The notes below the pieces were generated by a model that was given only the letters and a program-made list of their open reading frames with translations, did no database searches and was not told the origin of the DNA. Positions 1 through 31,661 of a DNA stretch of 33,227 bases are shown here, piece after piece. The stretch lies in assembly GCA_020629775.1 (NCBI GenBank), contig JAHDCP010000024.1:1-33227 (forward strand), in the 5' to 3' direction. The DNA comes from Planktomarina sp. (GTDB lineage Bacteria; Pseudomonadota; Alphaproteobacteria; Rhodobacterales; Rhodobacteraceae). Numbering within the stretch: position 1 is the stretch's first letter; each line of letters starts with the position of its first letter. Position numbers and translations under genes: made by a program.

Positions 1-18
1 CCCCAAAACAATTAGATC

Positions 19-427
19 TTATCTAAGCACTAGAACATTGGTTTGTGCGTGTCGTACGACCCAAGCGGCGGTGGACCCAAGGAAAAGATCAGTCAAGTTT
101 GGCTTGTGCGATTTGACCACGATACAATCTGCTTCGTTTGCCTTTGCCCAATCGACGATGCTGCGCCCCGCACCACCCAGAATGACAGCAGTTTTTGTGA
201 CATTTAATTTTCCGGGCCATGCTGTCCAGTTGGTGTTGAATATCTTCCCTGGATTTGACCTCAAAATCTGGTGGAATGTAAGATTGGGCATAGGTTGGAA
301 TAGGTTCAATCACGTGCAACAAAGTTATTTCCCCCCCTTCACTCAACAGCGCAGACGTTGCCTGCACTGCACTTTCATAGGCATCTGATTTTCCAAGTTC
401 GACTGGAACGATGATGTTGTTGAACAT
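19..427 (-). pseudogene. Universal stress protein (UspA family), frameshifted
   Basis: This is a small UspA-fold stress protein with the usual length of about 136 residues, but it is split over two reading frames. The N-terminal part (MFNNIIVPVELG, then ITLLHVIEP) is in one frame. The C-terminal part, with the nucleotide-binding-like pattern GGAGRSIVDWA and the end TNVLVLR, is in another. The frames join near 203-211, where the minus strand reads AAAATTAAATG; removing one A restores one continuous protein. An AAAGGA-type ribosome site precedes the ATG at 427. A degenerate FNR-type box lies upstream, which fits the usp genes often found next to fnr/hemN/cco in Rhodobacterales. The lesion is in an A/T-rich run, so a sequencing error is possible, but neighbouring genes are also broken. 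Confidence 0.8.
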
Positions 428-478
428 GTTTTTTCCTTTCGCTTTGAGATGAGTTTCGCAGGCTGAATCATCGGCTTC

Positions 479-492
479 ATGACATGGATCAA
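479..492. promoter_or_regulatory. Degenerate FNR/FnrL-type box upstream of usp
   Basis: The site reads ATGACATGGATCAA, against the FNR consensus TTGAT-N4-ATCAA; the right half is perfect and the left half has two mismatches. It lies about 50 bases upstream of the usp ATG at 427. The 160-base gap between usp and hemN holds nothing else I can identify. Confidence 0.45.
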
Positions 493-587
493 AAGCAGCG
501 AAATTAATATTTCGCCGCGATCAGGCTTCATTTCCAAAATCTAAGTATTGGCCTTAGCCACGCCGATAAACGCCGGTAATCACAACA

Positions 588-1943
588 TTAAATCGCGACG
601 CGGTGCACATGTTCGGCCTGCAAGGCCGTATCGATATGGGCGGCGACCACACGGGCCAGTTGTTCCATGCCGCTTTTCAAGTTCATCGTTTCGTCCGATC
701 GTTCTAAAGCTCTTGGAAAAGTAAATTGCAGATCTTGGAAAATCTGCTGAACGGTATCGGCGTATGCCGGATGGGACACCGCCAAGGTTTTGCCATTTAT
801 GCTGCCTTGGCACATCAATTGATCAAGGGCGTCTGCAATAAATGCATCTTCCGGCGTCAGAACATATCCCTTGTGACCGGACAATCGCCCTTCCCTGATA
901 TGCATTTGATAGGCCGCTGTTGCCACGGCGTTTTGCACAAAGCCCTGCCGATATCGGGAAATTGCCGATGCGCCAAAACCGATAAGCGTGGCGCATGGAT
1001 CGTCCGTATAACCCTGAAAATTCCGCCTCAATGTTCCCAACTGGGCAGCGGCTGCAAGACTATCGGTTTCTAAACTAAAGTGATCGATCCCCACCGGCAG
1101 GTACCCTAAATCTTGCAATCTGTGCTTTGCCAACTGGGCAGCTTCAAACCGTTGCAAGGTGTTGGGCAAAGAATCTGTGGCAATTAACCTCTGCCGCTTG
1201 GACATGTGCGGCACATGGGCATACCCGTACAGCGCCATTCGGTCAGGGCTAAGCGAATGCACCTGATCCAAAGTCGTAAGCAAGGTCTCCAGTGTTTGAA
1301 ACGGCAAGCCGTATAACAAGTCCACATTTAAACTTTCAACACCGCCCGCGCGCAATCGATCCACCACTGCTTGCGTTTGCTGAAAACTTTGCACCCGGCC
1401 AATGGCCACCTGCACTTTGGGCGCAAAGTCTTGCACGCCAATACTGGCACGGGTCATCCCCCGTTCAGCCAAAATATCCAAAACATCATCGGCAGCTTCG
1501 GTCGGATCAATCTTCACCGAAAATTCGCAATCGGATGTCCTAGTGAAGTGCTGATCTATAGCCTCCAACAGCCGTGCCATCTGTTCCCCAGAAAGCAGTG
1601 TTGGTGTTCCACCCCCTAAATGCAAACGCGCAATCTTTGGCTTGCTTTTCAATTGCGCAGAAACCAAGGCGATTTCATGTATCAAGTCATTCAAAAATGC
1701 TTCGACCGGGTGCATCGTTTGGGTGCCCTGTGTTCGGCATGCACAAAACCAACACAAGCGGCGGCAAAACGGGATGTGGAAATACAAAGAGACTGGCTCC
1801 TCGGCCGGCAGCCGACGAAGCCAATCGCTTTGCACCTTGGCGCCAACATTCACTTTGAAGCGGTTGGCTGGGGGATAACTGGTTTAGCGCGGCACCTTCG
1901 CGTCAAAAAGGCCGTACTCTTGCAGGATGGTTAAATTGTTCAT
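588..1943 (-). pseudogene. hemN: Oxygen-independent coproporphyrinogen III dehydrogenase, early stop codon
   Basis: HemN is a radical-SAM enzyme that decarboxylates coproporphyrinogen III for haem synthesis without oxygen. The CxxxCxxC cluster motif is visible as CRRLCWFC, followed by GGGTPTLL and the usual C-terminal region. The ORF track starts at 1853, but homologous sequence continues upstream from an ATG at 1943: MNNLTILQEYGLFDAKVPR, then a TAA at 1886-1884, then TSYPPANRF in the same frame. The TAA therefore replaces the Tyr of the conserved (P)RYTSYP motif, which in characterised HemN contributes to the active site. A GTG at 1853 could restart translation but would drop the first 30 residues, and I see no good ribosome site for it. 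A perfect FNR box lies 35 bases upstream of the ATG. Confidence 0.85.
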
Positions 1944-1977
1944 GGGCTCAGCTTAAGCTGATCGAAATCAGCCTTCT

Positions 1978-1991
1978 TTGATTCAGATCAA
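1978..1991. promoter_or_regulatory. Perfect FNR-type box, hemN promoter
   Basis: TTGATTCAGATCAA matches the FNR consensus TTGAT-N4-ATCAA exactly. It lies 35 bases upstream of the hemN ATG at 1943, in the 187-base divergent hemN/ccoN gap, and could also contribute to ccoN control. Confidence 0.8.
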
Positions 1992-2033
1992 TACGTAATA
2001 AAATCAGATTTAGCGTCAGCTTATCTGGCGGTT

Positions 2034-2047
2034 TTGACATAGATCAA
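2034..2047. promoter_or_regulatory. FNR-type box, ccoN promoter
   Basis: TTGACATAGATCAA has a single mismatch to TTGAT-N4-ATCAA and sits 84 bases upstream of the ccoN ATG. Together with the box at 1978 it makes the divergent hemN/ccoN region an oxygen-responsive control point, as is usual for cbb3 operons. The fnrL gene itself is not in the window. Confidence 0.75.
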
Positions 2048-2130
2048 AGTGCAAATCCCAAAACCACGCCAAGGTTATCCAAACGGCGGACTCCGATTCC
2101 GTCTTTTTTGGAGATTTGGAAAGGGCTGGT

Positions 2131-3767
2131 ATGGCGGATGCAGTTAAACTCAGTGTTTTGGTATTGATTGCTTTGGTAGCAACTTATGCTGCCGAACAAG
2201 GCAACGATTTGGCATTTCGCGCACATGGGCTGATTGTACTGCTTGTCGCAGCAGTGTTGTTCGTTTGGATCCTTCGCAAAAGTGGCGACTCCCGCCCGCA
2301 ATATTCCAGCACAGACTATATGGACGACCCGGTTCGTGCTGGCCTTTTGGCAACTGCTTTCTGGGGGATCGCGGGCCTTGGCGTGGGCACTTTCATTGCC
2401 TTTCAGTTGGCATTTCCGGGGTTAAACTGGGAGTGGGCACAACCATTCGGAAATTTTGGCCGCTTGCGGCCTTTGCACACTTCTGCGGTCATTTTTGCAT
2501 TCGGTGGAAACGCATTGATCGCACGTCCATTTATATCGTTCAGCGTACCAGCAGGACACGGTTGTTCGGAGGGAACCTGGTTTGGTTTGTCTTTTGGGGC
2601 TACCAACTTTTCATCGTTCTGGCGGCAACGGGCTATCTTTTGGGGGCCACGCAATCCAAAGAATATGCAGAGCCGGAATGGTACGTTGATATTTGGCTTA
2701 CAATCGTTTGGGTCGCGTATCTGATTGTTTTCTTAGGAACGATCATCAAGCGCAAAGAACGGCACATCTATGTTGCCAACTGGTTCTTCTTGGCCTTCAT
2801 CATAACAGTCGCGATGTTGCACATTGTGAACAACTTGGCGGTGCCTGTCAGCATCTGGGGTAGCAAGTCAGTTCAGCTGTTTTCTGGTGTCCAGGATGCA
2901 ATGACCCAATGGTGGTATGGACACAACGCGGTGGGCTTCTTTTTGACCGCAGGCTTTTTGGGCATGATGTATTATTTCGTACCCAAGCAGGCCAACCGCC
3001 CTGTTTACAGCTATAAACTGTCCATCGTTCACTTTTGGGCACTGATTTTTCTGTATATTTGGGCCGGTCCCCACCACCTTCATTATACCGCCTTGCCTGA
3101 TTGGGCGTCCACATTGGGCATGGTCTTCTCTGTTATCCTTTGGATGCCAAGTTGGGCCGGAATGATGAACGGTTTGATGACCTTGAATGGTGCATGGGAC
3201 AAAATTCGCACGGACCCGATCATCCGTTTTTTGGTGGCAAGCCTGGCTTTTTATGGGATGGCAACCTTCGAAGGTCCAATGATGTCGATCCGGGCCGTGA
3301 ACTCACTCAGCCACTATACTGACTGGACAGTGGGGCACGTGCATTCCGGCGCACTGGGTTGGAACGGAATGATCATCTTTGCCATGATCTATTTCTTGAC
3401 CCCACGGCTTTGGAATCGAGGTTCCATGTATTCGACATCTGCCATGAATTGGCACTTCTGGCTCGCGATGATTGGTATCGTTCTTTACGCTTCGTCAATG
3501 TGGGTCTCTGGAATTATGGAAGGACTGATGTGGCGTGAAGTTGATGATCAGGGGTTCTTGGTCAACAGCTTTGCTGACACCGTCAGCGCGAAATTCCCGA
3601 TGTATGTGGTCCGTGGTTTGGGTGGTGTCCTCTACCTCGCTGGGGCCGGGATCATGTGCTGGAACATGTGGATGACCATTCGTGGCTATGCCCGTGTCAC
3701 CCAACCCATCAGCGCGGTGACCCCACCAGCAATCGATACCCCCGCCCCTGCAACTCCCGCTGAATAA
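2131..3767 (+). pseudogene. ccoN: cbb3-type cytochrome c oxidase subunit I (CcoN), frameshifted
   Basis: CcoN is the catalytic haem-copper subunit of the high-affinity cbb3 terminal oxidase in the inner membrane. The reading frame opens at ATG 2131, preceded by GGAAAGG, and runs to GGNALIA. It then needs the +1 frame ([15 protein letters not shown] onwards) to continue to the stop at 3767. The break is at about 2521-2526: gcacgtcc is found where gcaacgtcc (A-T-S) is expected, i.e. loss of one A. With that base restored the protein is about 545 residues. The metal-site histidines ([41 protein letters not shown]) are all preserved, so the damage looks recent. The N-terminal fragment alone ends at 2724 and could not form an oxidase. 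Confidence 0.9.
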
Positions 3768-3778
3768 GGAGACACCAA

Positions 3779-4504
3779 ATGGCACTCATTGATAAACACG
3801 TCATATTGGAACGCAGCCCATCTTTGCTGCTGGCTTTCTCACTGTCAGTCGTGACCATCGGCGGGATCTTAGAAATTGCGCCTTTGTTCTGGCTGGAAAA
3901 CACGATCGAGGATGTGGAGGGCATGCGCCCTTATAGCCCGCTCGAACTGACGGGGCGGGACGTGTACATCCGTGAAGGCTGTTACGTCTGTCACAGCCAG
4001 ATGATCCGCCCCATGCGCGACGAGGTGGAACGGTATGGGCACTACTCACTTGCCGCCGAAAGCATGTACGATCACCCGTTCCAATGGGGTTCTAAACGCA
4101 CGGGTCCGGATTTGGCACGTGTTGGCGGAAGATACTCAGATGAATGGCATTTGGACCATTTGATCGACCCCCAATCTGTGGTGCCTGAAAGCATTATACC
4201 CAAATACGGCTTCCTGCTTGAGGCAAAACTGGAAGGTGACCAAATCGGTGATCTGATGGCAACGCAGCGCTTAGTTGGTGTTCCCTATACAGACGAACAA
4301 ATTGAAAATGCTTCATCCGATTTTCGGGTACAAGCGGACCCCGATGCTGATTGGGATGATATGCTGGATCGGTATCCTGGCGCGCCCATTGGCAATTTCG
4401 ATGGCCAACCACAACTGACTGAGATGGATGCCCTGATTGCATATCTTCAGATGATGGGCACGCTGGTCGATTTTTCAACATTTGTTCCCGAAAAAAGCCG
4501 GTAA
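3779..4504 (+). CDS. ccoO: cbb3-type cytochrome c oxidase subunit II (CcoO), mono-haem
   Basis: CcoO is the membrane-anchored cytochrome c subunit that passes electrons to CcoN. The 241-residue ORF is intact: an N-terminal transmembrane helix at about residues 18-40 ([23 protein letters not shown]), the haem-c motif CYVCHS at about residue 68, and a Met-containing distal part. It begins 11 bases after the ccoN stop, preceded by AAGGAGACACC, a strong ribosome site. The gene is undamaged, but its partners ccoN and ccoP are broken, so it probably has no assembled complex to join. Confidence 0.95.
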
Positions 4505-4517
4505 GGAGAGCCTGGAT

Positions 4518-4742
4518 ATGGAAACTTACACCCTCCTACGTGAATTTGCAGACAGCTGGTTTTTGATCGCAATGTTCACGTTTTTCATTGGCACATGGAT
4601 TTTTGCCTTTGGGCCTTCTTTAACACCGGCGCGCGACGAAGCCGCGTCTATTCCATTGCGCGACGATACGGCAAAGTGCGCTGAGACTTGTGAAAACTGC
4701 GCACCCAAAACTGACGTTAAGAAAGGGGCACATCATGGGTGA
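4518..4742 (+). CDS. ccoQ: cbb3-type oxidase small subunit CcoQ
   Basis: CcoQ is a small single-helix subunit that stabilises the cbb3 complex. The ORF track starts at 4482 inside ccoO. The ATG at 4518 is preferred because it follows AAGGAGAGCCTGGAT. The product is 74 residues with one transmembrane segment (WFLIAMFTFFIGTWIFAFGPS) followed by a charged tail with an unusual cluster of cysteines (CAETCENCAP). Its stop overlaps the ccoP start. It is intact. Confidence 0.85.
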   Translation: METYTLLREFADSWFLIAMFTFFIGTWIFAFGPSLTPARDEAASIPLRDDTAKCAETCENCAPKTDVKKGAHHG

Positions 4743-5586
4743 ACCGCGCAAAGATGAACTGACCGGTCGTAAGACCATGGGCCATGATTTTGACGGGATA
4801 GAAGAGCTGAATACCCCGATGCCGCGATGGTGGTTGATCACCTTCTATCTGACAATTTTTTTGGGGTGTTTGTTATACCATCGCCTTTCCCGCTTGGCCC
4901 ATGATCTCTGGCGCGACGGCGGGTTTGCTTGGCTATTCCACCCGTGCAGAAGTTGCCGCAGATATGGACGCGCATGAAAATACAAACGCTGCGCTAGTGG
5001 CGGACTTGCTTGATGTTGATCTGACCGCATTTGATCCACAATCCGATCTGCACAGATATGCTGTTGCCAGAGGAGGGTCGGTGTTCCGTGCGCAATGTAG
5101 CCAATGTCATGGCTCCGGTGCTGCAGGGGCCATCGGATACCCGAACCTTTTGGACAATGACTGGTTGTGGGGTGGTGATTTGGAAAACATCGCCTTTTCT
5201 GTGCGCCATGGTATTCGCAATGAAACCGATGGTGATGCTCGCTGGTCCGAAATGCCCGCTTTCAAAGACATCCTCGAACCATCTGAAATCAACGTCTTGG
5301 CTGATTACTTGCTGTCCTTGTCCAGCAGCGGAGATGCAAGTGAAGGTGCCACCCTTTTTGCTGACAACTGTGCCTCATGTCACGGTGACAAGGGACCGGG
5401 AATCGCGAATTGGGGGCCCCCAACTTGGCAGATGCGATTTGGCTGTATGGCGGCGATCGTGACAGCTTGATGGAAACAATATCCAATGCCCGCTTCGGGG
5501 TTATGCCTGCATGGGGCCAACGTTTAACAGAAGCTGATGTTCGCGCTGTATCAACTTACGTGCACGCCTTGGGTGGAGGTGAATAA
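4735..5586 (+). pseudogene. ccoP: cbb3-type oxidase di-haem subunit III (CcoP), two frameshifts
   Basis: CcoP is a membrane-anchored di-haem cytochrome c that feeds electrons into cbb3 oxidase. Three frame segments are needed to read it. The first (MGEPRKDELTG to LTIF) ends in a run of seven T at 4856-4862; six T would continue as WGVCYTIAFPAWP. The second holds the first haem motif CSQCHG and the second CASCHG, and breaks at 5391-5400, where agggaccggg lacks one A (GTGNRELGAPN expected). The third runs to the TAA at 5584. The two indels are +1 and -1, so start and stop are back in the same frame, but a stop at 4975-4977 prevents read-through. The start overlaps ccoQ. The restored length is about 283 residues, normal for the family. 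Confidence 0.88.
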
Positions 5587-5601
5587 GAGCAGATTGCCTG
5601 C

Positions 5602-5631
5602 GCCGGCAAAGGTGACCTCCTCCTTGTCGGC
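5602..5631 (+). other. Possible RNA hairpin between ccoNOQP and ccoGHIS
   Basis: GCCGGCAAAGG and CCTTGTCGGC can pair, with one G-T and one bulged A, around a 9-base loop just after the ccoP stop. There is no T-run, so it may be a stabilising or factor-dependent end rather than an intrinsic terminator. The rest of the 224-base gap to ccoG holds the FNR box at 5742. Confidence 0.3.
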
Positions 5632-5741
5632 CTAACGATCTGATGCGCCGGAAATTAAAAGGGGCACCGGAACCTGCCCAAAAGGCCGCATTAAGTCCCC
5701 GCAAGAACCCCGTCACTTTTCATGGCGTAGGGCCTGATGTT

Positions 5742-5755
5742 TTGACTTGGATCAA
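5742..5755. promoter_or_regulatory. FNR-type box, ccoGHIS promoter
   Basis: TTGACTTGGATCAA has one mismatch to TTGAT-N4-ATCAA and lies 56 bases upstream of the ccoG ATG. It suggests that ccoG-fixH-ccoI-ccoS had its own oxygen-regulated promoter in addition to read-through from ccoNOQP. Confidence 0.7.
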
Positions 5756-5810
5756 TATGTCGAATTCTGATCCAGGCAATACTGGTCCTATCATTTAGAA
5801 GTGGCCACCC

Positions 5811-7226
5811 ATGACAAACCCAAGCGAAAACCTTTACGCAGCACGTGAACCCATTTTTCCCAAAAGAGTTTACGGGAAGTTCCGTAACCTGAAATGGGTT
5901 GTGATGTTGGTCACCTTAGGCATTTACTATATCACCCCTTGGATCCGTTGGGACCGGGGGCCAAACCTTCCAGACCAAGCCGTGCTGGTCGATCTGGCCG
6001 GGCGTCGATTTTACTTCTTTTGGATCGAAATCTGGCCCCACGAATTCTATTTCGTTGCTGGTTTGTTGATCATGGCCGGGCTTGGGCTTTTCTTGTTCAC
6101 GTCCGCATTGGGGCGTGTCTGGTGCGGATATACGTGCCCTCAAACAGTGTGGACCGATCTGTTCATTTTAGTGGAACGCTGGATAGAGGGGGATCGAAAC
6201 GCCCGATTGCGGCTACACAGAGCGAACTGGTCCTTTGCGAAAGCCAGGCTTCGGGTCACAAAATGGGTGGTATGGGCTTTGATAGCTTTGGCCACCGGCG
6301 GCGCATGGGTTTTTTACTTCGCGGATGCGCCAACCCTGGCTGCTCAGTTCCTTTCGTTGTCTGCGCCATATGTTGCTTGGGTCACTGTTGGCATCCTTGC
6401 CGCAACAACATTTGTTTTCGGCGGCTTCATGCGTGAACAAGTTTGCATTTACATGTGCCCGTGGCCACGCATTCAAGGTGCAATGATGGATGATGACACG
6501 CTTACTGTCGCCTATCGCGATTGGCGTGGCGAACCCCGCGGCAAGGCACGTGATTCCACCGCCGGGGACTGCGTGGATTGCATGGCTTGCGTCAATGTTT
6601 GCCCAATGGGGATCGACATCCGGGATGGTCAACAAATGGAGTGCATTACCTGCGCGCTGTGAATTGATGCCTGCGACGAGGTGATGAACAAATTGGGCCG
6701 TGAACGCGGCCTTATCGATTACCTTGCATTGTCCGATGGCCCTCGTGAACAGACCGGAGAAAAACCACGGCCCAACTGGCAGCATGTGTTGCGTCCAAGG
6801 ACCATTCTTTATTCCTGCATCTGGGCCTGCTTTGGGCTTGCGATGACATACGCTTTGTTCATTCGACCGGAAATTGATGTCACGGTGGCGGCGGTCCGCA
6901 ATCCAACGTTCGTAACACTTTCGGACGGGTCAGTGCACAACACATATGAGCTTCGGCTTTGCAACAAGCATGGTGTAGATCGCATGTTTGGCGTGCATGT
7001 CATGGGCGATCTCAGCCTAAAGATCTCTTTGGAAGGCACCCCATACGAAGCGGTTAACGTGCCCGCCGATGAAACCATGAAATTGCGGGTTTACATAACA
7101 GCCCCAGCGTCCAGCTTACCCGCACAATCCCAAGAAAGCCCTGTCCGGTTTTGGATCGAAGATTTGGGCAACGGTGAACGCGCGTATCAAAACAGCCACT
7201 TCAAAGGAAAAGGAGATATGTCATGA
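5811..7226 (+). pseudogene. ccoG: cbb3 oxidase assembly ferredoxin CcoG (RdxB/FixG), in-frame TGA at a cluster cysteine
   Basis: CcoG is a polytopic membrane protein with two ferredoxin-type [4Fe-4S] motifs, implicated in copper reduction during cbb3 assembly. The reading frame runs from ATG 5811 through several membrane helices, the motif CGYTCPQTVW and CVDCMACVNVCPMGID, and reaches ECITCAL followed by TGA (6660-6662), then IDACDEVMNKLG in the same frame to the stop at 7226. The family has Cys at that position (CxxCxxCxxxC), so a TGY Cys codon became TGA. The C-terminal fragment contains the periplasmic immunoglobulin-like domain. Recoding as selenocysteine cannot be excluded from sequence alone but is unlikely, given the other lesions nearby. 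The start codon follows AGTGGCCACCC, a weak ribosome site. Confidence 0.88.
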
Positions 7227-7679
7227 AAACGCTTACTGGTTGGCATGTCTTTGTAATGTTTGGCTTTGGTTTTGGAACCATCATTGCCGTGAACCTGACA
7301 CTGGCTTTCAACGCAGTCCGCACATTTCCAGGCCTTGAAGTAAAGAACGCCTATGTCGCCAGTCAGGGGTTTGACGCTGACCGCAAGGCGCAAGGCGCAA
7401 GAAGCGTTGAATTGGACGGTCAGTGCACACCTTGATGGCAACACTTTGGTTGTTCGTTTTGAAGATGATGGCCACTTGGTGGCGCCGACCATTGAAAAAG
7501 CCACTTTTGGCCGTGCGACTAGTGTTACGGCAGACCAAGCACCTGACTGTGCCCTGACAAATGGCGTGTTCAAGGCACAAGTTTTGGCTGGTTCGGGGAA
7601 CTGGAATTTGCGCATTGTTGCCCGCGCAGATGATGGGACCCGTTTCCAGCAACGGATCGTGGTCGAGGTGCTGCAATGA
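7223..7679 (+). pseudogene. ccoH: FixH/CcoH family cbb3 assembly protein, frameshifted by a 7-base duplication
   Basis: FixH/CcoH is a small membrane protein required for cbb3 maturation. The frame opens with ATG 7223, overlapping the ccoG stop, and encodes one N-terminal transmembrane helix (WHVFVMFGFGFGTIIAVNLTLAF) and NAYVASQGFDADRKAQ. It then runs out at 7435. The family sequence resumes in another frame (QEALNWTVSAHLDGNTLVVRF) to the stop at 7679, which overlaps ccoI. The cause is a third copy of a 7-base unit at 7382-7402; removing one copy gives a continuous protein of about 150 residues. A 7-base duplication is not a typical sequencing error. Confidence 0.87.
7382..7402 (+). repeat. 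Tandem 7-base repeat (three units) inside fixH
   Basis: The sequence CGCAAGG-CGCAAGG-CGCAAGA is three adjacent 7-mers, the last with one change. Two units keep fixH in frame; the third shifts it. The unit length is not a multiple of three, so slippage would turn the gene on or off. Confidence 0.85.
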
Positions 7680-9796
7680 CAGCGGCGTGCGCCGCGGCCC
7701 CATTCGCAATGGAACTGGCCGACACATCAACGGGCATCCAACTTTCGGTGCCTTCCATTCACTGTGCATCTTGCATTGGGGCAATCGAAAGACACTTTTC
7801 CAAGGTCCCGGGCGTTCAGGATGCCCGCGTGAATGCCACTCAAAAACGAGTCGCAGTTCAATCGAATTTGTCGGCCGATGTGCTGGTTCAGGAACTCAAC
7901 TCAATCGGGTATGAGGCCTTCCCTCTTGATGATGATGCCTTAAAAAATGACGCAGACCCTGTCTGCCGTGATCTTATTCTAAGGATGGGCGTCGCTGGAT
8001 TTGCCATGATGAATGTCATGCTTCTTTCAGTGGCAGTTTGGACCGGTGCCACAGATGCGACACGCGATCTTTTTCACCTGCTTTCGGCAGCGATCGCCGT
8101 GCCAGCCGTCATCTTTTCTGCAAGTCCATTCCTCAAAAACGCAATCCACGCGCTGAAAGGCGGCCGTCTAAACATGGATGTTCCAATTTCGTTAGCCATT
8201 GTTCTTGCAGCCGGAATGTCCCTTTATGAATCGCTGCACGGCGGTGCGCATGCGTATTTTGATGCGGCCCTGTCGTTGACGTTTTTTCTGATGATCGGAC
8301 GGTATTTGGAACACCAAACCAAATCGGCCGCACGGTCTGCCGCTGCAGAACTCGCCGCACTTGAAGTGCACCGGGCCGACCGGAAGGTCGGAAACGAAAT
8401 TGAGTCTGTTGCTGTGAAAGATCTTTTCATCGGCGACACCATTCTTGTGGGGTCGGGCATGCGTGTCCCGGTGGATGGCAGACTTCAAACACAAACAGCA
8501 TGTACCGATCGTTCCTTTCTGACCGGCGAAAGCGAACCCATAGAGCACACAAAACATGAGCCGTTGTGCGCCGGAGAAATTAACCTTGGCGCCCCGTTCG
8601 AAATCATTGCCACCGCCATCGGCGCAAACACCCGTTTGCGGCGGATCGCGGAACTTGTGGAAACAGCCGAAAATGCGCGCAACAGTTATACCAGTTTAGC
8701 CGATAAAGCGGCGCAGATTTATGCACCCGTTGTCCACGTGCTGGCCGCCGCAACGTTTCTGGCTTGGATTCTTATCAATGGGGACGTTCGAAACGCCCTT
8801 AACATTGCCATCGCTGTTTTAATCATCACATGTCCTTGTGCATTGGGGCTGGCGGTACCCGCGGTTTCGACCGCCGCAATAAGCCGACTTTACCAAATGG
8901 GGTTTTTGGTCAAATCCGGCACGGCATTGGAACGTTTGGCCTTGGCCAAAACCATGATTTTTGACAAGACTGGCACCCTTACGGCACCTGGGTTTTCATT
9001 CGGAATAAAGGACCTTTCCCCGACCCAGCGCGCCATTGCCAAAGGGTTGGCACAACAATCGTCCCATCCTTTATCAAAGGCACTTGCACAACACCTGACA
9101 GAAGACGTTGCCGCACAAATCGAAAATATCTTCGAACATCCTGGCTTGGGGGTTGAAGGGGCCTGGAAGGGGCGAAAAGTGGCCCTTGGCAAACCCGCTT
9201 GGTTAAACCAGCCTGGCGATGCGTTGACATTGAAGGTTGGTGGCACGGCATGTCCCTTATTGAGTTACGAAAATGTATTGCCCGGTGCGGAATATCTAAT
9301 AAGTGACTTAGATCTGCTGGGTATCTCTTCGCAAATTATTTCCGGTGACACGGAGGCAAATACCGAAAGACTTGCGCGCAAGCTTGGGTTCGGATCCTGG
9401 CGCAGCAACGTTTCACCCGAACAAAAAGCGATGTGTGTTAAACAATGTTCCCTCGCTGGACCAGTTTGCATGGTTGGTGACGGGATCAACGATACTGCGG
9501 CACTGGCGCAGGCTAACGTTTCCATAGCGCCAGGTACGGCCCTTGATGCAACCCGAAATGCTGCTGACATTGTCATGATTGGAGACGGATTGGGCAGCAT
9601 TCCCAAGGTGGTTTCTGTTTCGCGCAAAGCGGTGAACCTGTCCAAACAGAACTTTGGGATCGCAATTCTTCACAGTGTGATCGCAGTTCCCATCGCCATG
9701 GCTGGATTTGCAACACCGCTTATCGCAGCTTTGGCCATGTCAACGTCGTCCATTACTGTTCTTTTGAATGCTATGCGTGTGAGACTTGGAAAATGA
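7676..9796 (+). CDS. ccoI: Copper-translocating P1B-type ATPase for cbb3 oxidase (CcoI/FixI)
   Basis: CcoI is an inner-membrane P-type ATPase needed for copper delivery to the CcoN active site. The 706-residue ORF is intact and close to full family length. It has an N-terminal metal-binding domain with CASC at about residue 30, eight predicted membrane helices, the TGES loop (~280), the intramembrane copper motif CPC at about 385-387, the phosphorylation motif DKTGT at about 430, SSHPLS of the nucleotide domain and GDGINDTAAL at about 600. It overlaps fixH by 4 bases and ccoS by 4 bases, so translation was probably coupled. It remains undamaged while fixH immediately upstream is frameshifted; a general copper-export role could explain its retention, but simple chance is also possible. 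Confidence 0.93.
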   Translation: MTAACAAAPFAMELADTSTGIQLSVPSIHCASCIGAIERHFSKVPGVQDARVNATQKRVAVQSNLSADVLVQELNSIGYEAFPLDDDALKNDADPVCRDLILRMGVAGFAMMNVMLLSVAVWTGATDATRDLFHLLSAAIAVPAVIFSASPFLKNAIHALKGGRLNMDVPISLAIVLAAGMSLYESLHGGAHAYFDAALSLTFFLMIGRYLEHQTKSAARSAAAELAALEVHRADRKVGNEIESVAVKDLFIGDTILVGSGMRVPVDGRLQTQTACTDRSFLTGESEPIEHTKHEPLCAGEINLGAPFEIIATAIGANTRLRRIAELVETAENARNSYTSLADKAAQIYAPVVHVLAAATFLAWILINGDVRNALNIAIAVLIITCPCALGLAVPAVSTAAISRLYQMGFLVKSGTALERLALAKTMIFDKTGTLTAPGFSFGIKDLSPTQRAIAKGLAQQSSHPLSKALAQHLTEDVAAQIENIFEHPGLGVEGAWKGRKVALGKPAWLNQPGDALTLKVGGTACPLLSYENVLPGAEYLISDLDLLGISSQIISGDTEANTERLARKLGFGSWRSNVSPEQKAMCVKQCSLAGPVCMVGDGINDTAALAQANVSIAPGTALDATRNAADIVMIGDGLGSIPKVVSVSRKAVNLSKQNFGIAILHSVIAVPIAMAGFATPLIAALAMSTSSITVLLNAMRVRLGK

Positions 9797-9963
9797 GTGT
9801 ACTGGTTATCCTTATTCCCGTGTCGCTTTTCTTAGGGCTTTTGGGGCTCGTCGGTTTTCTGTGGACCATTCGCACACACCAATATGAAGACCCTGTGGGC
9901 GAAGCTTCCAGGATCTTACTGAACTTTGATGACGAAGGCCCCCGAGACAAAACGGAAAACTGA
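9793..9963 (+). CDS. ccoS: cbb3 oxidase maturation protein CcoS
   Basis: This 56-residue ORF is too short for the ORF track. It starts at an ATG overlapping the ccoI stop (ATGA). It encodes one N-terminal transmembrane helix (MSVLVILIPVSLFLGLLGLVGFLW) followed by TIRTHQYEDPVGEASRILL, the expected CcoS pattern (membrane anchor, then a Gln-Tyr-[Glu/Asp]-Asp-like stretch and acidic tail). CcoS is required for cofactor insertion into CcoN. It is the last gene of ccoGHIS and is intact. Confidence 0.85.
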   Translation: MSVLVILIPVSLFLGLLGLVGFLWTIRTHQYEDPVGEASRILLNFDDEGPRDKTEN

Positions 9964-23066: not shown

Positions 23067-24010
23067 TCAGCTGAACGATTTTTCAATCCGGTCTAAAGTA
23101 CGCATAGCATCCAGAGTATCGTGAACCGAACCGTTTGGTTCCCGGCCTTCCTGAATGGCTGTTATGAACTCTCGATCAATCAATTCGATGCCATTGCTGG
23201 ACACCGCCACATCACTCAGATCAATCTGATTTTCCCGCCCGTCATAAAGATCATCATATCGCGCCAGATAAGTTCCATTATCGCAAATGTAACGGAAGAA
23301 CGTTCCCAAGGGGCCGTCATTGTTAAACGACAGGGACAACGTGCAGATTGCGCCAGATGGGGTTTTCATCCCGATGGACATGTCCATGGCAATGCCCAAA
23401 TCCGGGTGATGCGGCCCTTCAAGGCCAAAGCATTGGGAAGCCACTTCACCGGTTTGGTATTGAAACAAATCCACCGTATGACAGGCATGGTGCCACAACA
23501 GATGATCCGTCCAACTGCGCGGTTCGCCCTTTGCATTCATATTTGATCTGCGAAAGAAATAGGTCTGAACATCCATCTGCTGGACCTTCAGTTCCCCTGC
23601 ATCAATCTTGTTGCGAATCCATTGGTGTGACGGATTAAATCGGCGCACCTGACCGGCCATGGCCAAAACCCCTGTTTCCTTTTGAACCGCACAAATGCGT
23701 TCGCTGTCTTCCAATGAATCCGCCATGGGAATTTCAATCAACACTGGCTTTCCCGCCTTCATGCACGCGATCGCCTGTGCGGCGTGCATTTGGGTTGGCG
23801 TCGCCAAAATGACAGCATCCACATCGTCACGGGCCAAGCAGGCTTCAAGCGATGTGGATGCGAATCCAATATTACGTTCAGCCGCCAGGGCATCAATCTT
23901 TGTCTGCGTTGGGCCCATCACAGCAGTCACCGTCACTTCATCAATCGCGGACAACGCATCCAAGTGTTTGATCCCAAATGCACCATAGGCCCCTGCTACA
24001 CAAATTCGCA

Positions 24011-24011
<1 letters not shown>
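23067..24011 (-). CDS. ligC: 4-carboxy-2-hydroxymuconate-6-semialdehyde dehydrogenase
   Basis: LigC oxidises the hemiacetal of 4-carboxy-2-hydroxymuconate-6-semialdehyde to 2-pyrone-4,6-dicarboxylate with NAD(P). The 314-residue Gfo/Idh/MocA-type protein has a Rossmann start (CVAGAYGAFGIKHLDAL) and stretches I recognise from Sphingobium LigC: QVRRFNPSHQWI, GEPRSWTDHLLWHHACHTVDLF and FNNDGPLGTFFRYICDNGT. It overlaps ligB by one base (TAATG-like junction) and is the last gene of the minus-strand operon. Confidence 0.93.
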
Positions 24012-25288
<1,277 letters not shown>

Positions 25289-25296
<8 letters not shown>

Positions 25297-26206
25297 TTTT
25301 CAAAGCAAGCAACATGGCATCTGTCAGCGCTTGAATGTCTGTTGCACCGATTTCAGACGCATTGAGCGCAAGTGATCCCGCCTGGCTTTGGCGGGCAACA
25401 GTGCCATTTGTGACACTCGGATCCAGCCCCAAATCCCGCAATGTTTGTGCCACTTCGCGCATTTCAGCGGCGCGTCGGACCCCATGGGTGATGGCACGTT
25501 CAATCATATAAGGCGCGCGTTCTGGCCAGTTAAACCCTGGATAGCTTTTATCAAGCGATGCCATTATTTCCGTGTCTATGCCCGCTTTGCGCGCAGCCAA
25601 AAAACATTCAAGCGTCAGGGCTTCCAGCCCTTTGACCATGATCGATCTGATCATCTTGCGGGTGGACGCGTCCCCCACTGACGGCCCGGCAATGGACGCC
25701 TCCATGCCCAAGTGCTCCAGCATGGCCAAGCCTGCCTTTGCGTGGGGGCCAGCCAAAAGACAGGGCGATCGATGCAACTTCGGATGAACCGGCGTCATGA
25801 TGGCAACATCAACGTACCGCCCACCGGCAGCATTCACCACTTGGGCCGAACGTTTTTTTGTTTCAGGGGCGCAACTGTTGCAATCGAAATAAAGACACCC
25901 CGCCATATCAACCTGGGCTGCCTGTCCGGCCGCATCTTCAGCTTGCTCCGCTGTAACTAACGAAAAAACCGCGGGCACCCTCAAACAGGTTTCTGCCGCG
26001 CTTTTCGCAGTTTTCATACCGCACTGATCAAACGCTTTCAGAATGCTGTCAGGATCGCCTTGATCCAGTTTGATATCATAGGCACAAAACTGCAAATCCG
26101 GGTTGCCTTGCTGCATCCCAGTGCAAAACGCCTGCGCAGCCTCACCAAAGCCAATAAAGGCAACACCATTTTTAAATCGGGTGGTTTCTTTTGCGTTCTT
26201 GGCCAT
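25289..26206 (-). CDS. NAD(P)-binding oxidoreductase, 6-phosphogluconate dehydrogenase-like with DUF1932-type C-terminus
   Basis: This 305-residue protein has an N-terminal Rossmann domain (VAFIGFGEAAQAFCTGM) of the β-hydroxyacid dehydrogenase type and a helical C-terminal part (STRKMIRSIMVKGLEALTLECFLAARKAG, PYMIERAITHGVRRAAEM) of the kind called DUF1932. The usual β-hydroxyacid dehydrogenase Lys appears as RKMIRSIMVKG. It is the first gene of the operon leading into ligABC, overlapping ligA by 8 bases. Homologues are, to my knowledge, often seen next to protocatechuate 4,5-cleavage genes without a settled role; no step of the known pathway requires it. I do not assign a substrate. Confidence 0.85.
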
Positions 26207-26265
26207 GCGATCAGGCTAACACCCCCCCGACAAAGGATGCCAATTCAAATCGAATAATCAATATT

Positions 26266-26277
26266 GAAAAAAGCTAT
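26266..26277 (-). promoter_or_regulatory. Shared TAGCTTTTT element upstream of the ligABC operon
   Basis: Reading towards the operon, the minus strand has ATAGCTTTTTTC about 60 bases upstream of the first start at 26206, followed by AATATTGATTATTC. The same word in the same orientation occurs upstream of galB at 27528. It is a candidate binding site of the LysR protein. Confidence 0.4.
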
Positions 26278-26311
26278 TCATGTTGGTTTTTGCATCGGTC
26301 TCGTGCGGAAA

Positions 26312-27517
26312 CTAAGGGCTGTACTTATGCAAAAAATCAATGAATTGCTCTTGTGTCGCGGTTGGGCGCCAACCCTTACGATACGTCAAGCCAATTTCCC
26401 GAACGTGGCCTTGAAGCGCCACATTCAATGGGGCCAGCAGCCCCAATCTTGCTTCCACCCCAATTTGATGGCGTGAAACGATTGAAACATAATTTCCTTC
26501 GGATAGGACCCCGCGCAATACCGCCATCGAAGAAGAAACCACTCGCACCGGGGACCGATCCAAGTCTTGGATTCGCAAAGTTTCAAACAAATATTGCCCA
26601 GCCGGGGTTTCTTTCGGCGGCGCCACCCAAGGGTACGCCAATGTATCTTGCAGGCTGACTGCGCTTTGTGACGCCAAAGGATGATTGGGATGCGCAACAA
26701 TTGACAATTCGTCCCGAAAAAGACCCTTCTGCACCACGTCCTCCGCAGGATGCGGGGACCGCAATGCCCCAATCAAACAATCCACATCGCCTTCTCGCAA
26801 CGACCGCAAAAGTTCGGAATACCGACCATCAATAATGCGAACTTGAACACCTTTGCGGGACGTTGTCATCGCGTGGATCGCTTTTGGCACAATGCTTGTT
26901 CTGGCAAGCGGCAAACTGCCAAGCACGAAGGTGCCTTTGTCTTCGCCAGTGATTTGGCTTATTTCTTCAATCCCTTGGCGAATTTCAGATTGGGCGAGTT
27001 TGACTTCCTTCACGAAGGTCTCGGCCACAGGGGTTAAGGCAACGCCAGATGGGCGAGCCATAAAAAAAGGTGTTTTTGCCAAAGCCTCTAGGCTGCGTGC
27101 GGCGCGATGGATTGTGGGCTGTGAAAGCCCCAACGCACTTGCTGCCAAAGTGAAACTGCCGGTGTTTGCGATGGCCACTAGCGTGCGCAACTGGGCCGCT
27201 GTTACAGCAAGATCAAACCCAGCCTGGCGCTTTTTGGTGGTGTTGGTGCCGCGCATGGCCGCTTTGGCGCCTTGTCTCAAATGCGCCAACGCCTGGGACG
27301 CCCTTTGTTCAAATACTCTGCCACTGGGGGTGGGGCCAAAGCTATGTTTTTGTCGGTTCAACAACGGAACGCCAATGTCTGCTTCCAACCTCGCGATCGC
27401 TTGACTGGCAGCAGGTTGGGACAAGTGGCAACTTTCGGCCGCGGCAGAAACCGAACCAGTTCGCACCGTTTCCAGGAAAACACGCATATGCCTAATATTT
27501 GGAAAGCCATTCCACAT
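26312..27517 (-). CDS. LysR family regulator with two N-terminal helix-turn-helix domains
   Basis: This 401-residue regulator is about 100 residues longer than a usual LysR protein. Residues 7-70 form one winged helix-turn-helix (IRHMRVFLETVRTGSVSAAA, LSQPAASQAIARLEADIG). Residues 106-165 form a second (LRTLVAIANTGSFTLAASAL, LSQPTIHRAARSLEALA). They are followed by the effector-binding domain (GTFVLGSLPLARTSIVPKAI, VDCLIGALRSPHPAEDV, VSSSMAVLRGVLSEGNYVSIV). It is divergent from galB and upstream of the ligABC operon in the same direction, so it probably regulates both transcription units of the protocatechuate pathway. The likely effector is a pathway intermediate or protocatechuate. Confidence 0.9.
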   Translation of the reverse strand: MWNGFPNIRHMRVFLETVRTGSVSAAAESCHLSQPAASQAIARLEADIGVPLLNRQKHSFGPTPSGRVFEQRASQALAHLRQGAKAAMRGTNTTKKRQAGFDLAVTAAQLRTLVAIANTGSFTLAASALGLSQPTIHRAARSLEALAKTPFFMARPSGVALTPVAETFVKEVKLAQSEIRQGIEEISQITGEDKGTFVLGSLPLARTSIVPKAIHAMTTSRKGVQVRIIDGRYSELLRSLREGDVDCLIGALRSPHPAEDVVQKGLFRDELSIVAHPNHPLASQSAVSLQDTLAYPWVAPPKETPAGQYLFETLRIQDLDRSPVRVVSSSMAVLRGVLSEGNYVSIVSRHQIGVEARLGLLAPLNVALQGHVREIGLTYRKGWRPTATQEQFIDFLHKYSP

Positions 27518-27527
27518 GAAACCATTC

Positions 27528-27539
27528 TATAGCTTTTTC
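27528..27539 (+). promoter_or_regulatory. Shared TAGCTTTTT element upstream of galB
   Basis: TATAGCTTTTTC lies about 89 bases upstream of the galB ATG, in the 110-base divergent gap with the LysR gene. It is followed by TTATTTTGAATACCC, similar to the sequence after the copy at 26266. Confidence 0.4.
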
Positions 27540-27627
27540 TTATTTTGAATACCCAATTCGAAATAGGCAATTTCACCCCGGCAGGTTTACTGTCTTGCCT
27601 AAAGAAACCCAAAGAAAGGCTTGACCC

Positions 27628-28365
27628 ATGGCTGATAAGAAAACTGCGCTGGTGATAAGCGCGCATTCTGCTGATTTTGTCTGGCGGGCTGGCGGCGCAA
27701 TTGCATTGCATCAGGACAAAGGCTTTGAGGTCACGGTGGTTTGTCTGTCTTACGGTGAGCGCGGTGAAAGCGCGAAACTTTGGAAGCAAGAAGGTATGAC
27801 TTTAGAAAAAGTCAAAACCGAACGACGTAAAGAAGCAGAAAACGCGGCAGCCGCTTTGGGCATGAACGACATCCGCTTTTTCGATGTTGGGGATTATCCC
27901 CTGGATTTAGGTCGGGACACCCAAGACCGCATGGTGGATGTTATCCGCGAAGTTCAGCCCAAGTTTATGATGTCCCATTCCAAGTGGGATCCATACAACA
28001 CGGACCACATGAACACGACGCAATTTGTTTTGGAATGCCGAATGATTGCCCAAGCCTGGGGCCACAACCCCGGGCAAAAGGTTTTGGGCGCCCCGCAGTT
28101 GTATCTTTTTGAGCCGCACCAAACAGAACAGATGAATTGGAAACCAACCACGTTTCTCGACATCACGGAAGTCTGGGACAAAAAATGGGCGGCGATCCAA
28201 TGCATGCAAGGGCAAGAACACTTGTGGCACTTCTATGAAAACGTCGCGCAAAATCGGGCCAACCATTTCCGCCGCAACTCTGGCGGAATGGCGGGTGGGC
28301 GTGTCGCCAAATACGCCGAAGGGTTTGAAACGGTCTTCCCACGCACAGTGGACGAGTTGGAATAA
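27628..28365 (+). CDS. galB: 4-oxalomesaconate hydratase (GalB, PIG-L fold)
   Basis: GalB adds water to 4-oxalomesaconate to form 4-carboxy-4-hydroxy-2-oxoadipate, using a zinc site in a LmbE/PIG-L fold. The 245-residue protein contains [20 protein letters not shown] (metal-binding motif) and stretches I recognise from Pseudomonas Gal[32 protein letters not shown] and [11 protein letters not shown]. It replaces the unrelated amidohydrolase LigJ used by Sphingobium for the same step. It starts after AAAGGCTTGACCC and its stop overlaps the ligK start (TAATG). Confidence 0.9.
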
Positions 28366-29054
28366 TGCATAAGCCGGGAACAGCGGGCGTTGTCGTCCAG
28401 AACATTGAACGCGCGGACCAGACCATTATCGATGGATTGGCTCAATGCGGTGTTGCAACAGTCCACGAAGCGCAAGGCCGCAAAGGTTTGCTGGCGGATT
28501 ATATGACGCCGATTTATCCAGGCGCGCGCATTGCCGGATCTGCCGTAACAATCTTGGCGCCGCCCTGCGACAACTGGATGATCCACGTTGCCATTGAACA
28601 ACTGCACCCAGGTGATGTGCTTTTACTGGGAACGATGGCCCCTTCGAATGCCGGGTATTTTGGCGATCTGTTGGCAACATCTGCGATGCATCGTGGGTGT
28701 AAAGGCCTGATCATCGACGCAGGTGTTCGGGATGTGAAAGATTTGACCGAAATGGGCTTTCCGGTTTGGTCAAAGGCAGTGCATGCCCAAGGCACGATTA
28801 AGGAAACCCTGGGGTCAGTGAATGTACCGGTTGTTTGCGCGGACGGACTGGTGAACCCCGGTGACATTGTCGTGGCCGACGACGATGGTGTTTGCATTGT
28901 GCGCCGCGAAGAAGCTGCTTCTGTTTTGGAAAAAGCAAATGCCAGAGAGGCAAACGAAGGCGGCAAACGCGCCCGTTTTGAAGCTGGTGAATTGGGTCTT
29001 GATATCTACAACATGCGCGAACGTTTGGCTGAGAAAGGCTTGAAATATGTCTGA
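28365..29054 (+). CDS. ligK: 4-carboxy-4-hydroxy-2-oxoadipate aldolase
   Basis: This 229-residue RraA-fold class II aldolase (LigK/GalC/ProA group) splits 4-carboxy-4-hydroxy-2-oxoadipate into pyruvate and oxaloacetate; many members also decarboxylate oxaloacetate. It shows the family core [38 protein letters not shown], where the final Arg-Asp lies in the substrate/metal site, and [14 protein letters not shown]. It overlaps galB by one base and ligU by 8 bases. This is the last chemical step of the pathway. Confidence 0.92.
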
Positions 29055-30102
29055 TGGCATCCGCTGCATGTGGATGCGCGGCGGGACATCCAAAGGCGGG
29101 TATTTCTTGTCAGACGATTTGCCGTCAAATCCGGCCGCCCGAGATGCCATTTTACTGGGGGTTATGGGGTCACCTGACAGTCGTCAGATTGATGGTATGG
29201 GCGGGGCAGACCCTTTGACGTCTAAGGTGGCGATGGTGCGCAAATCGACCCGGACAGGTGTGGATGTTGACTACCTGTTTTTGCAGGTTTTCGTCGATCA
29301 AGCGATCGTGACCGACGCTCAAAATTGCGGGAACATTTTGTCGGGCGTAGGTCCTTTTGCCATCGAACGTGGGCTCGTTCAGGCAAATGATGGCGAAACC
29401 CCCGTAACGATTTTTATGGAGAATACCGGGCAAATTTCAGTTGCGCGCGTGAAAACCCCTGGGAAACGCGTAGCCTATGCGGGGGACGCAATGATCGACG
29501 GCGTTCCAAAAGGATCAGCCCCGGTGCCTATCACATTCAAAGACACTGCTGGTTCTTCATGCGGCGCGCTTTTGCCAACAGGCAATGCGCTTGACGTAAT
29601 CGATGGCGTACCTGTGACGATGATCGACAACGGCATGCCGTGCGTTGTCCTTCGGGCCAGCGATATGGGTATTTCAGGCGACGAAACACCTGAAGATTTG
29701 GAAAAAGATGAGAGTCTACGCAGCAGATTAGAGTCGATCCGATTGATTTGTGGTTCAATGATGAACTTAGGCGATGTCACTGAAAAATCAGTTCCCAAAA
29801 TGACCATGGTCAGCGCACCTGCCAACGGCGGCGCAATTTCAACACGAACTTTCATCCCCCACAGATGCCACAAAACCATTGGCGTTTTGGGTGCCGTCTG
29901 TGTGGCCACTGCGTGTTTGATAGAAGGATCCTCCGCATTTGATTTGGCCAGCCGTGGCGAAGGCACAACCCGTAGTCTTTCTGTCGAACACCCAACTGGA
30001 GAGATGACTGTTGTCGCAACATTGGATCATTCTGGCACAGTGTCCGAAGCGGCAATCCTGCGTACCGCCCGCAAACTTATGGATGGAAAGATTTTCCCAT
30101 GA
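29047..30102 (+). CDS. ligU: 4-oxalomesaconate tautomerase (LigU/GalD, PrpF family)
   Basis: This 351-residue PrpF-type isomerase has the signature [13 protein letters not shown] near the N-terminus, which contains the catalytic Lys region. Further family stretches are [28 protein letters not shown] and GNALDVI. It shifts the double bond of 4-oxalomesaconate so that the hydratase can act. It overlaps ligK by 8 bases and ligI by 4. The name galD is used for the Pseudomonas enzyme. Confidence 0.9.
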
Positions 30103-30983
30103 TTGATCAGCCAATGGATCCGAATTGGCTTCGGTTTCACCCGGACCCGAAGACCCCCAACTTTATTTTGCCAGACGGTGCGGTAGATGCCCACTGCCAC
30201 GTTTTTGGTCCAACGCCGGAGTTTCCATTTGCTCCTGAACGAAAGTACACGCCGTGCAATGCCGGCAAGGATCAGCTTTATGCCCTACGTGATCATCTAG
30301 GATTTGCCCGAAATGTGATTGTACAAGCTACCTGTCACGGCAAAGACAACAGCGCGATGGTGGATGCCTGTCGAACTGCGGGTGATTTGGCACGCGGCGT
30401 GGCCAGCGTGGGTGCGGATATCACCCGGGATCATCTGGCCGAAATGCACCAAGCCGGTGTACGCGGTGTACGCTTCAATTTTGTCAAACGCCTGGTAGAT
30501 GCAACACCACGGGAGGTGTTCATTGGGATTGCCGAAAAGATACAGGAATTTGGTTGGTCAATCGTGGTCTATTTCGAAGCGGCAGATTTAGAAGATCTGG
30601 AACCTTTTTTGCGCCAATTGCCCGGAATTATTGTCGTGGATCACATGGGGCGACCGGATGTTACCAAAGGGGTTGATGATCCCGATTTTGAACGGTTCAT
30701 CCGTTTAATGTCAGAAAATGAAAACATCTGGACTAAGGTTACCTGCCCAGAACGGCTAACTGCCCAAGGCGCACCTTATGATGATGTCGTTCCGTTTTAC
30801 CGATCGATCATTGACCGATTCGAAGACAAAGTTCTTTGGGGTACCGATTGGCCGCACCCGAATATGAAGTCACATATGCCAGACGATGGCAGGCTGGTGG
30901 AATATATCCCGCGTATTGCGCGCACAAAGACACAGCAACAAAAGCTTCTGGTGGATAACCCAATGCGACTTTACTGGTCCTAG
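30099..30983 (+). CDS. ligI: 2-pyrone-4,6-dicarboxylate lactonase
   Basis: This 294-residue amidohydrolase-superfamily lactonase opens 2-pyrone-4,6-dicarboxylate to 4-oxalomesaconate. It has the HxH motif in VDAHCHVFGP, the substrate-contact region LGFARNVIVQATCHG, GVRGVRFNFVKRLVD, VDHMGRPDV and the catalytic Asp in LWGTDWPHPN, ending in DNPMRLYWS as in Sphingobium LigI. It is the last gene of galB-ligK-ligU-ligI. The stop codon TAG lies inside a 12-base perfect palindrome (GGTCCTAGGACC). Confidence 0.95.
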   Translation: MIDQPMDPNWLRFHPDPKTPNFILPDGAVDAHCHVFGPTPEFPFAPERKYTPCNAGKDQLYALRDHLGFARNVIVQATCHGKDNSAMVDACRTAGDLARGVASVGADITRDHLAEMHQAGVRGVRFNFVKRLVDATPREVFIGIAEKIQEFGWSIVVYFEAADLEDLEPFLRQLPGIIVVDHMGRPDVTKGVDDPDFERFIRLMSENENIWTKVTCPERLTAQGAPYDDVVPFYRSIIDRFEDKVLWGTDWPHPNMKSHMPDDGRLVEYIPRIARTKTQQQKLLVDNPMRLYWS

Positions 30984-31009: not shown

Positions 31010-31588
31010 TCAAATAATGTCACACTCGAACGCAACATAGGGTTTGCCTTCTTCTTTAACGACGTCACCAAGTTGCTTGGGATTGTAACCATACCGCTTG
31101 GCCATCCGCATAAAGGCATGCCAGCCCAGAAACAGACATCGCTCACCACCATGCATTTTTATGTAAGCATTGGCCGTATCCAAGATTTGCTTGCCCACCA
31201 TTCCCTTGTTTTCAATCGCCACCAACCGGGACAATTCCCATGACTTTTCGTCGGTGGGCGGGGTGTTCCAACAAATATTGGAGGGCAGCCCTATTTTGCC
31301 GTGAAACGCATCATTGATCATATAGGTGTTTTTCGTTCGCCCATTTCCAACCGAATTGTCACATCGCACCAAACGTGCGCCGCCGATGACACGCCCATTT
31401 TCATGGCCGACAATGTAAACGGTGCCTGCGCCAACGTCATACTGCTCATATTCGATTTCCTCGACGGTGGTTAAATCCCAACCGATTTTATCAATGAAAA
31501 CGGCACTGCGCAGACGCAGATAATCAACCACTAAATCCCATCGCGCAATGCCACCAGGCATCTTCAAAACTGAAATTTCCACATGCAA
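31010..31588 (-). CDS. LuxI-type acyl-homoserine-lactone synthase
   Basis: This 192-residue autoinducer synthase makes an N-acyl (or N-aryl) homoserine lactone from S-adenosylmethionine and an acyl donor. Conserved features are RLRSAVFIDKIGW (Arg, Phe, Trp of the SAM site), EYEQYD, YIVGHENGRVIGGARLVR and WELSRLVAIE (Glu, Arg). In the family the segment before QYD normally reads ExDQYD; here the first Asp is Glu. The gene is divergent from luxR with a 73-base gap and converges with ligI. Acyl chain and donor cannot be predicted from sequence. Confidence 0.9.
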   Translation of the reverse strand: MHVEISVLKMPGGIARWDLVVDYLRLRSAVFIDKIGWDLTTVEEIEYEQYDVGAGTVYIVGHENGRVIGGARLVRCDNSVGNGRTKNTYMINDAFHGKIGLPSNICWNTPPTDEKSWELSRLVAIENKGMVGKQILDTANAYIKMHGGERCLFLGWHAFMRMAKRYGYNPKQLGDVVKEEGKPYVAFECDII

Positions 31589-31644
31589 ACATCCCTATTT
31601 CATCTTCACCATACACTAAAAAAGATTGTATAGCACAACGACTA

Positions 31645-31656
31645 CACCTTAAGGTG
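31645..31656. promoter_or_regulatory. 12-base perfect palindrome at the luxR start
   Basis: CACCTTAAGGTG ends 5 bases before the luxR ATG and includes the ribosome-binding AAGGTGA. It may be an operator for LuxR autoregulation, or may simply fold over the ribosome site. It is shorter than a classic 20-base lux box. Confidence 0.4.
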
Positions 31657-31661
31657 AATCA

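Follow-up and report, generated by a model that had tools for sequence, protein, structure and literature searches.

A 2025 survey of 653 genomes reported that the cbb3 and bd oxidases are both absent from six pelagic Roseobacter clusters, RCA included, with the exception of two deep TCR species that carry cbb3, and explained the absence by oxygen-rich water (PMC12661815). In the CHUG roseobacters, populations whose oxygen affinity was measured to differ are set apart by cbb3 together with the regulator FnrL (PMC9426536). The intact modules closest to the locus described here are those of Pseudaestuariivita atlantica (L027) and of a genome labelled uncultured Halocynthiibacter (L028), in which the genes follow the arrangement hemN-fnrL-[usp]-ccoNOQP-ccoGHIS.

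The window, that is, the whole stretch of 33,227 nucleotides analysed here, begins with the chromosomal cbb3 oxidase unit (usp, hemN, ccoNOQP, ccoGHIS) of a marine Roseobacter-group bacterium. The order of hemN, ccoNOQP and ccoGHIS is the same as in L027 and L028, the FNR boxes occupy corresponding sites, and the CcoN, CcoO, CcoP and CcoG pieces are 88% identical. The window differs from these two modules by six broken genes, by the absence of fnrL and by the location of usp, which lies on the opposite side of hemN. As in the pelagic Roseobacter clusters, RCA/Planktomarina included (PMC12661815), most members of the genus are devoid of cbb3: CcoO is encoded by a single one of 19 genus mates, G013, in an operon of a different lineage, and a cytochrome bd-type subunit I is found, besides the genome under study, in G011 and G014 only. 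Unlike the situation in those clusters, however, the module is still present here, although decaying, and a bd-type oxidase is retained. The CHUG populations offer a second parallel, since loss or gain of a unit made of ccoGHNOPQ and FnrL likewise splits close relatives (PMC9426536); there the contrast is one of presence and absence, whereas here pseudogenes remain in place. The locus looks like the group-wide loss known for pelagic roseobacters, caught part-way.

Lesions and intact genes in the cbb3 module

Positions 1-9800 of the window were compared with the intact modules of four relatives, namely L027, L028, HTCC2150 (L044) and the genus mate G013. The first two are the closest and the last two lie further away. 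The genes of the module are the following:

19..427, minus strand: usp (universal stress protein) pseudogene, frame break near 203-237
588..1943, minus strand: hemN, in-frame TAA at 1884-1886, inside a conserved motif
2131..3767, plus strand: ccoN pseudogene, frame break near 2523
3779..4504, plus strand: ccoO, intact (TIGR00781, 355.6 bits)
4518..4739, plus strand: ccoQ, open frame
4735..5586, plus strand: ccoP pseudogene, two frame breaks (4856-4866 and 5389-5422)
5811..7226, plus strand: ccoG pseudogene, TGA at 6660-6662 replacing a conserved Cys
7223..7679, plus strand: fixH (ccoH) pseudogene (PF05751), frame break near 7382-7402 with a 7-base tandem duplication
7676..9796, plus strand: ccoI, copper P-type ATPase, intact (TIGR01511, above cut-off)
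9793..9960, plus strand: ccoS, intact (PF03597)

A reading of the sequence alone had proposed seven lesions in six of these ten genes, and every one of them was recovered in its place when the module was aligned by tblastn with the intact orthologues of these four relatives. The frame breaks appear as collinear matches in different frames: two for ccoN (2137-2523 and 2523-3731, the distal piece being 94.5% identical to L028), three for ccoP (4603-4866, 4856-5422 and 5389-5583) and two for fixH (7220-7393 and 7356-7664). For usp, the pieces 427-167 and 237-22 lie in two frames and each matches part of the L027 protein. The two remaining lesions are stop codons. In comparison with the intact relatives, the TAA of hemN falls within the conserved 'DAKVPR-Y-TSYPPANRF' motif, and the TGA of ccoG takes the position of the third Cys of their 'CITCALCIDAC', a ferredoxin-type cysteine motif. 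The hemN stop may be bypassed through a GTG start at 1853, which would yield a shortened protein; this remainder of 421 amino acids scores 328.2 bits and passes the NCBIfam hemN cut-off of 324.95.

The same early reading held that ccoO, ccoQ, ccoI and ccoS were spared, and their frames are indeed open, with CcoO, CcoI and CcoS above their family cut-offs. The operon order ccoNOQP-ccoGHIS is conserved and all the subunit and assembly genes are in place. The catalytic and haem subunits and the assembly factors are nevertheless not uninterrupted. The products of ccoN, ccoP, ccoG and fixH are needed for the cbb3 enzyme or for its assembly. Because these four genes are broken, this locus is not expected to yield a functional cbb3 oxidase.

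The missing regulator and the age of the loss

The FNR boxes are intact, as had been noted from the sequence alone. There are three of them, listed here together with the site at which the closest relatives carry fnrL:

1944..2130, site of fnrL in the closest relatives, here intergenic DNA alone
1978..1991, FNR box upstream of hemN, TTGATTCAGATCAA
2034..2047, FNR box upstream of ccoN, TTGACATAGATCAA
5742..5755, FNR box upstream of ccoG, TTGACTTGGATCAA

The boxes lie at sites matching those of the relatives, and nine equally strict sites occur elsewhere in 1.04 Mb. The targets of an FnrL regulon are thus preserved upstream of the operons, but the regulator, an oxygen-sensing activator, is missing from the genome. 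Among the relatives' loci with enough flanking sequence, fnrL is found upstream of ccoN, usually beside hemN, in 59 of 67, while no credible remnant of it was detected in the roughly 190 bases that separate hemN and ccoN in the window. FnrL is absent from the genus mates and from the genome itself, whose best match is a stretch of 30% identity at the end of contig C81, and no HTH_Crp domain scored above cut-off in the whole 98% complete genome. In the only FixK-like homologue, at positions 5345-5848 of C81 (L141), the DNA-binding region is preceded by an in-frame TAG, and 63 bases beyond this codon the contig comes to its end. The gene resembles one of G013 that has no N-terminal Cys cluster. 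Its stop codon may be an eighth lesion, in the circuit that regulates the module. The loss of fnrL and the apparent truncation of the FixK-like gene go beyond what the sequence-only reading had observed.

The remaining pieces of the module were then considered as a record of time. The similarity of the ccoN, ccoO, ccoP and ccoG pieces to L027 and L028 is about the same as that of these two modules to each other, their changes are concentrated at third positions as in the intact relatives, and the window branch is not long in the cbb3 tree. No clear excess of amino-acid changes is seen in these four genes, and a slight one is seen in fixH and ccoI, a pattern that a recent loss would produce. 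Because the module decays at a normal protein divergence, the loss appears recent when set against the divergence between species, in agreement with the date first suggested for it. Assuming that no nonsense change other than the two stops has arisen since selection ended, one would expect about 55 neutral changes (0.6% of sites), a very rough estimate that rests on two events and carries a several-fold uncertainty both ways.

The reading that we favor, with a probability of roughly 0.88, is that the cbb3 module is in the course of being lost, by multi-lesion decay and with its regulator gone. The decay of a single functional unit, as originally proposed, is strengthened by the absence of FnrL and by the lack of cbb3 in most of the genus. 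According to this scenario, the lineage would have ceased to use cbb3 and purifying selection on the module would have stopped. Mutations of several types would then have accumulated by drift, recently enough for the rest of the proteins still to look constrained. The loss of the regulator, of FnrL and then perhaps of a FixK-like successor, may have preceded this decay and silenced the operon. Against full decay, ccoO, ccoQ, ccoI and ccoS are still open and hemN may restart.

It is possible, although we judge it clearly less probable than not, that the lesions exist but belong to a module that is still polymorphic, some cells keeping an intact operon while the assembly displays one degraded haplotype. 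The low inferred age of the loss is compatible with such variation, as is the variability of cbb3 and FnrL between close CHUG populations (PMC9426536), and next to the module the contig stops at a branch of the assembly graph. A second version of the module DNA is, however, absent from the bin. This possibility would refine the decay explanation and does not contradict it. A somewhat more tentative proposal puts the regulator first: FnrL would have disappeared genus-wide, a FixK-like protein lacking the Cys cluster may have sustained the operons with FNR boxes for a time, and its own loss in this lineage would have released the whole regulon to joint decay, the cbb3 of G013 having come from another lineage.

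Background rate, assembly and origin of the contig

To estimate the background of frame breaks, the proteins of G012, a closed genome consisting of one contig of 3,288,122 bases, were compared by tblastn with about 1.07 Mb of the assembly, to which the remainder of the window belongs. Six of the ten module genes are broken against one of 139 orthologues elsewhere (Fisher P = 1e-7), in a control that takes genes conserved with G012 and under-samples accessory pseudogenes elsewhere. The same kind of test recovered all six broken module genes. With the proteins of other relatives, it returned no further break apart from hemN itself. The seven lesions all fall within 7.7 of the 33.2 kb (P about 4e-5), and the clustering described from the sequence alone is therefore not a matter of chance. 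Disabling lesions relative to intact orthologues thus exceed the background of the same assembly.

The single flag of the control, on contig C113, is probably not a lesion. It looks like a gene fission, since two genes that are separate here, presumably ispD and ispF, are fused in G012 (as what we take to be ispDF). Raw N-terminal flags proved to be overcalled start sites, and requiring identity upstream removed them. A homology-free frameshift detector based on codon usage was replaced by the homology test, as it gave zero events even in the window, its penalties favoring non-coding gaps.

Positions 1-55 of the window are the exact reverse complement of positions 1-55 of contig C28 (L107), which is the left neighbor of the window in the assembly graph. 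Exact 55-base ends are common to C28 and C82, the contig of the window, and to several other contig pairs; they are the mark of a k = 55 short-read graph assembly. The apparent circularity of two other contigs, C2 and C141, came from masked N sequence.

All seven lesions lie within 7.4 kb of the contig end, at the branch shared with C28, and the first ccoP break sits at a run of seven T, the sole lesion in a long homopolymer. Errors of sequencing or assembly, due to low coverage or to a collapsed strain mixture at this end, are an unlikely explanation all the same. An assembly made of error-prone long reads alone, which would have undermined the initial observation, is not what the 55-base ends point to, and indel errors, which are rare in short reads, are thus an unlikely cause of the lesions. 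Two of the lesions are moreover base substitutions that create stop codons, a third is a 7-base tandem duplication, the adjoining ccoI (2.1 kb) and ccoO (0.7 kb) are clean, and the other contigs, many of them short, are almost break-free by the same test.

The origin of the contig was addressed with trees built by one method from few taxa. The core alignment of 4,884 residues places the genome within the genus, together with G013 (support 100/100), and has L027 and L028 among the nearest outgroups. In the cbb3 protein tree, the window module groups with L027 and L028 (100), and G013 is found elsewhere, with Shimia, Tateyamaria and Silicimonas (96). That the CcoN, CcoO, CcoP and CcoG pieces are less similar to the genus mate G013 than to L027 and L028 could suggest a misbinned contig from a relative of Pseudaestuariivita. 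This is even less likely than assembly error: the core tree unites the genome with G013, the genus mates have counterparts of the window genes from 10 to 30 kb, often clustered with a similar set of genes, C28 is joined to the contig by the 55-base overlap, and the genome is rated 98.0% complete with just 0.13% contamination. Given the position of L027 and L028 just outside the genus in the core tree, the window module fits vertical descent. The intact operon of the sister species G013 (L108, G013 C38, 11618-19267), located at a different site that has neither hemN nor fnrL, is probably a later acquisition.

Recoding with a working enzyme is very improbable: a TGA in place of Cys in ccoG might evoke selenocysteine, and the other lesions programmed frameshifts, but five frame breaks of differing kinds in four genes and the TAA of hemN have no common recoding mechanism, and FnrL is missing too.

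Remaining oxidases and significance of the decaying module

A search of the genome for a second ccoNOQP found none, nor any other copy of the module DNA. One other COX1 gene is present, of the aa3 type. Contig C105 (L142) carries at 1029-3433 an intact two-subunit cytochrome bd-type oxidase, though bd was reported absent from the pelagic clusters (PMC12661815). The similarity to E. coli CydA is weak (235 bits for a cut-off of 968), and the oxidase is perhaps of the cyanide-insensitive kind. Since the aa3 and the intact bd-type oxidases remain, the abandonment of low-oxygen respiration put forward in the sequence-only reading goes beyond the data; hemN, too, may persist in a shortened form.

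That reading also had the lineage keeping aromatic catabolism, which holds for the contig but which nothing ties to the loss of cbb3. Protocatechuate 4,5-cleavage genes, all with open frames, occupy positions 23067-30983 of the window. The LigA and LigB subunits, 4-oxalomesaconate tautomerase and a LigK-type aldolase score above their family cut-offs, and the other steps of the pathway are probably encoded alongside. At 31010-32306, an autoinducer-synthase-like gene (PF00765) is divergent from a LuxR-type regulator with an autoinducer-binding domain.

The decaying module is a good example of a described trend and not a new kind of system. The loss of high-affinity oxidases, a known mark of pelagic roseobacters, is usually seen just as presence or absence. 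A module that retains its structural genes, with varied lesions and no regulator, offers a way to date such a loss and allows one to ask whether the loss of the regulator precedes structural decay. Surveys of gene presence would wrongly take the ccoO, ccoI and ccoS of this genome as signs of microaerobic respiration.
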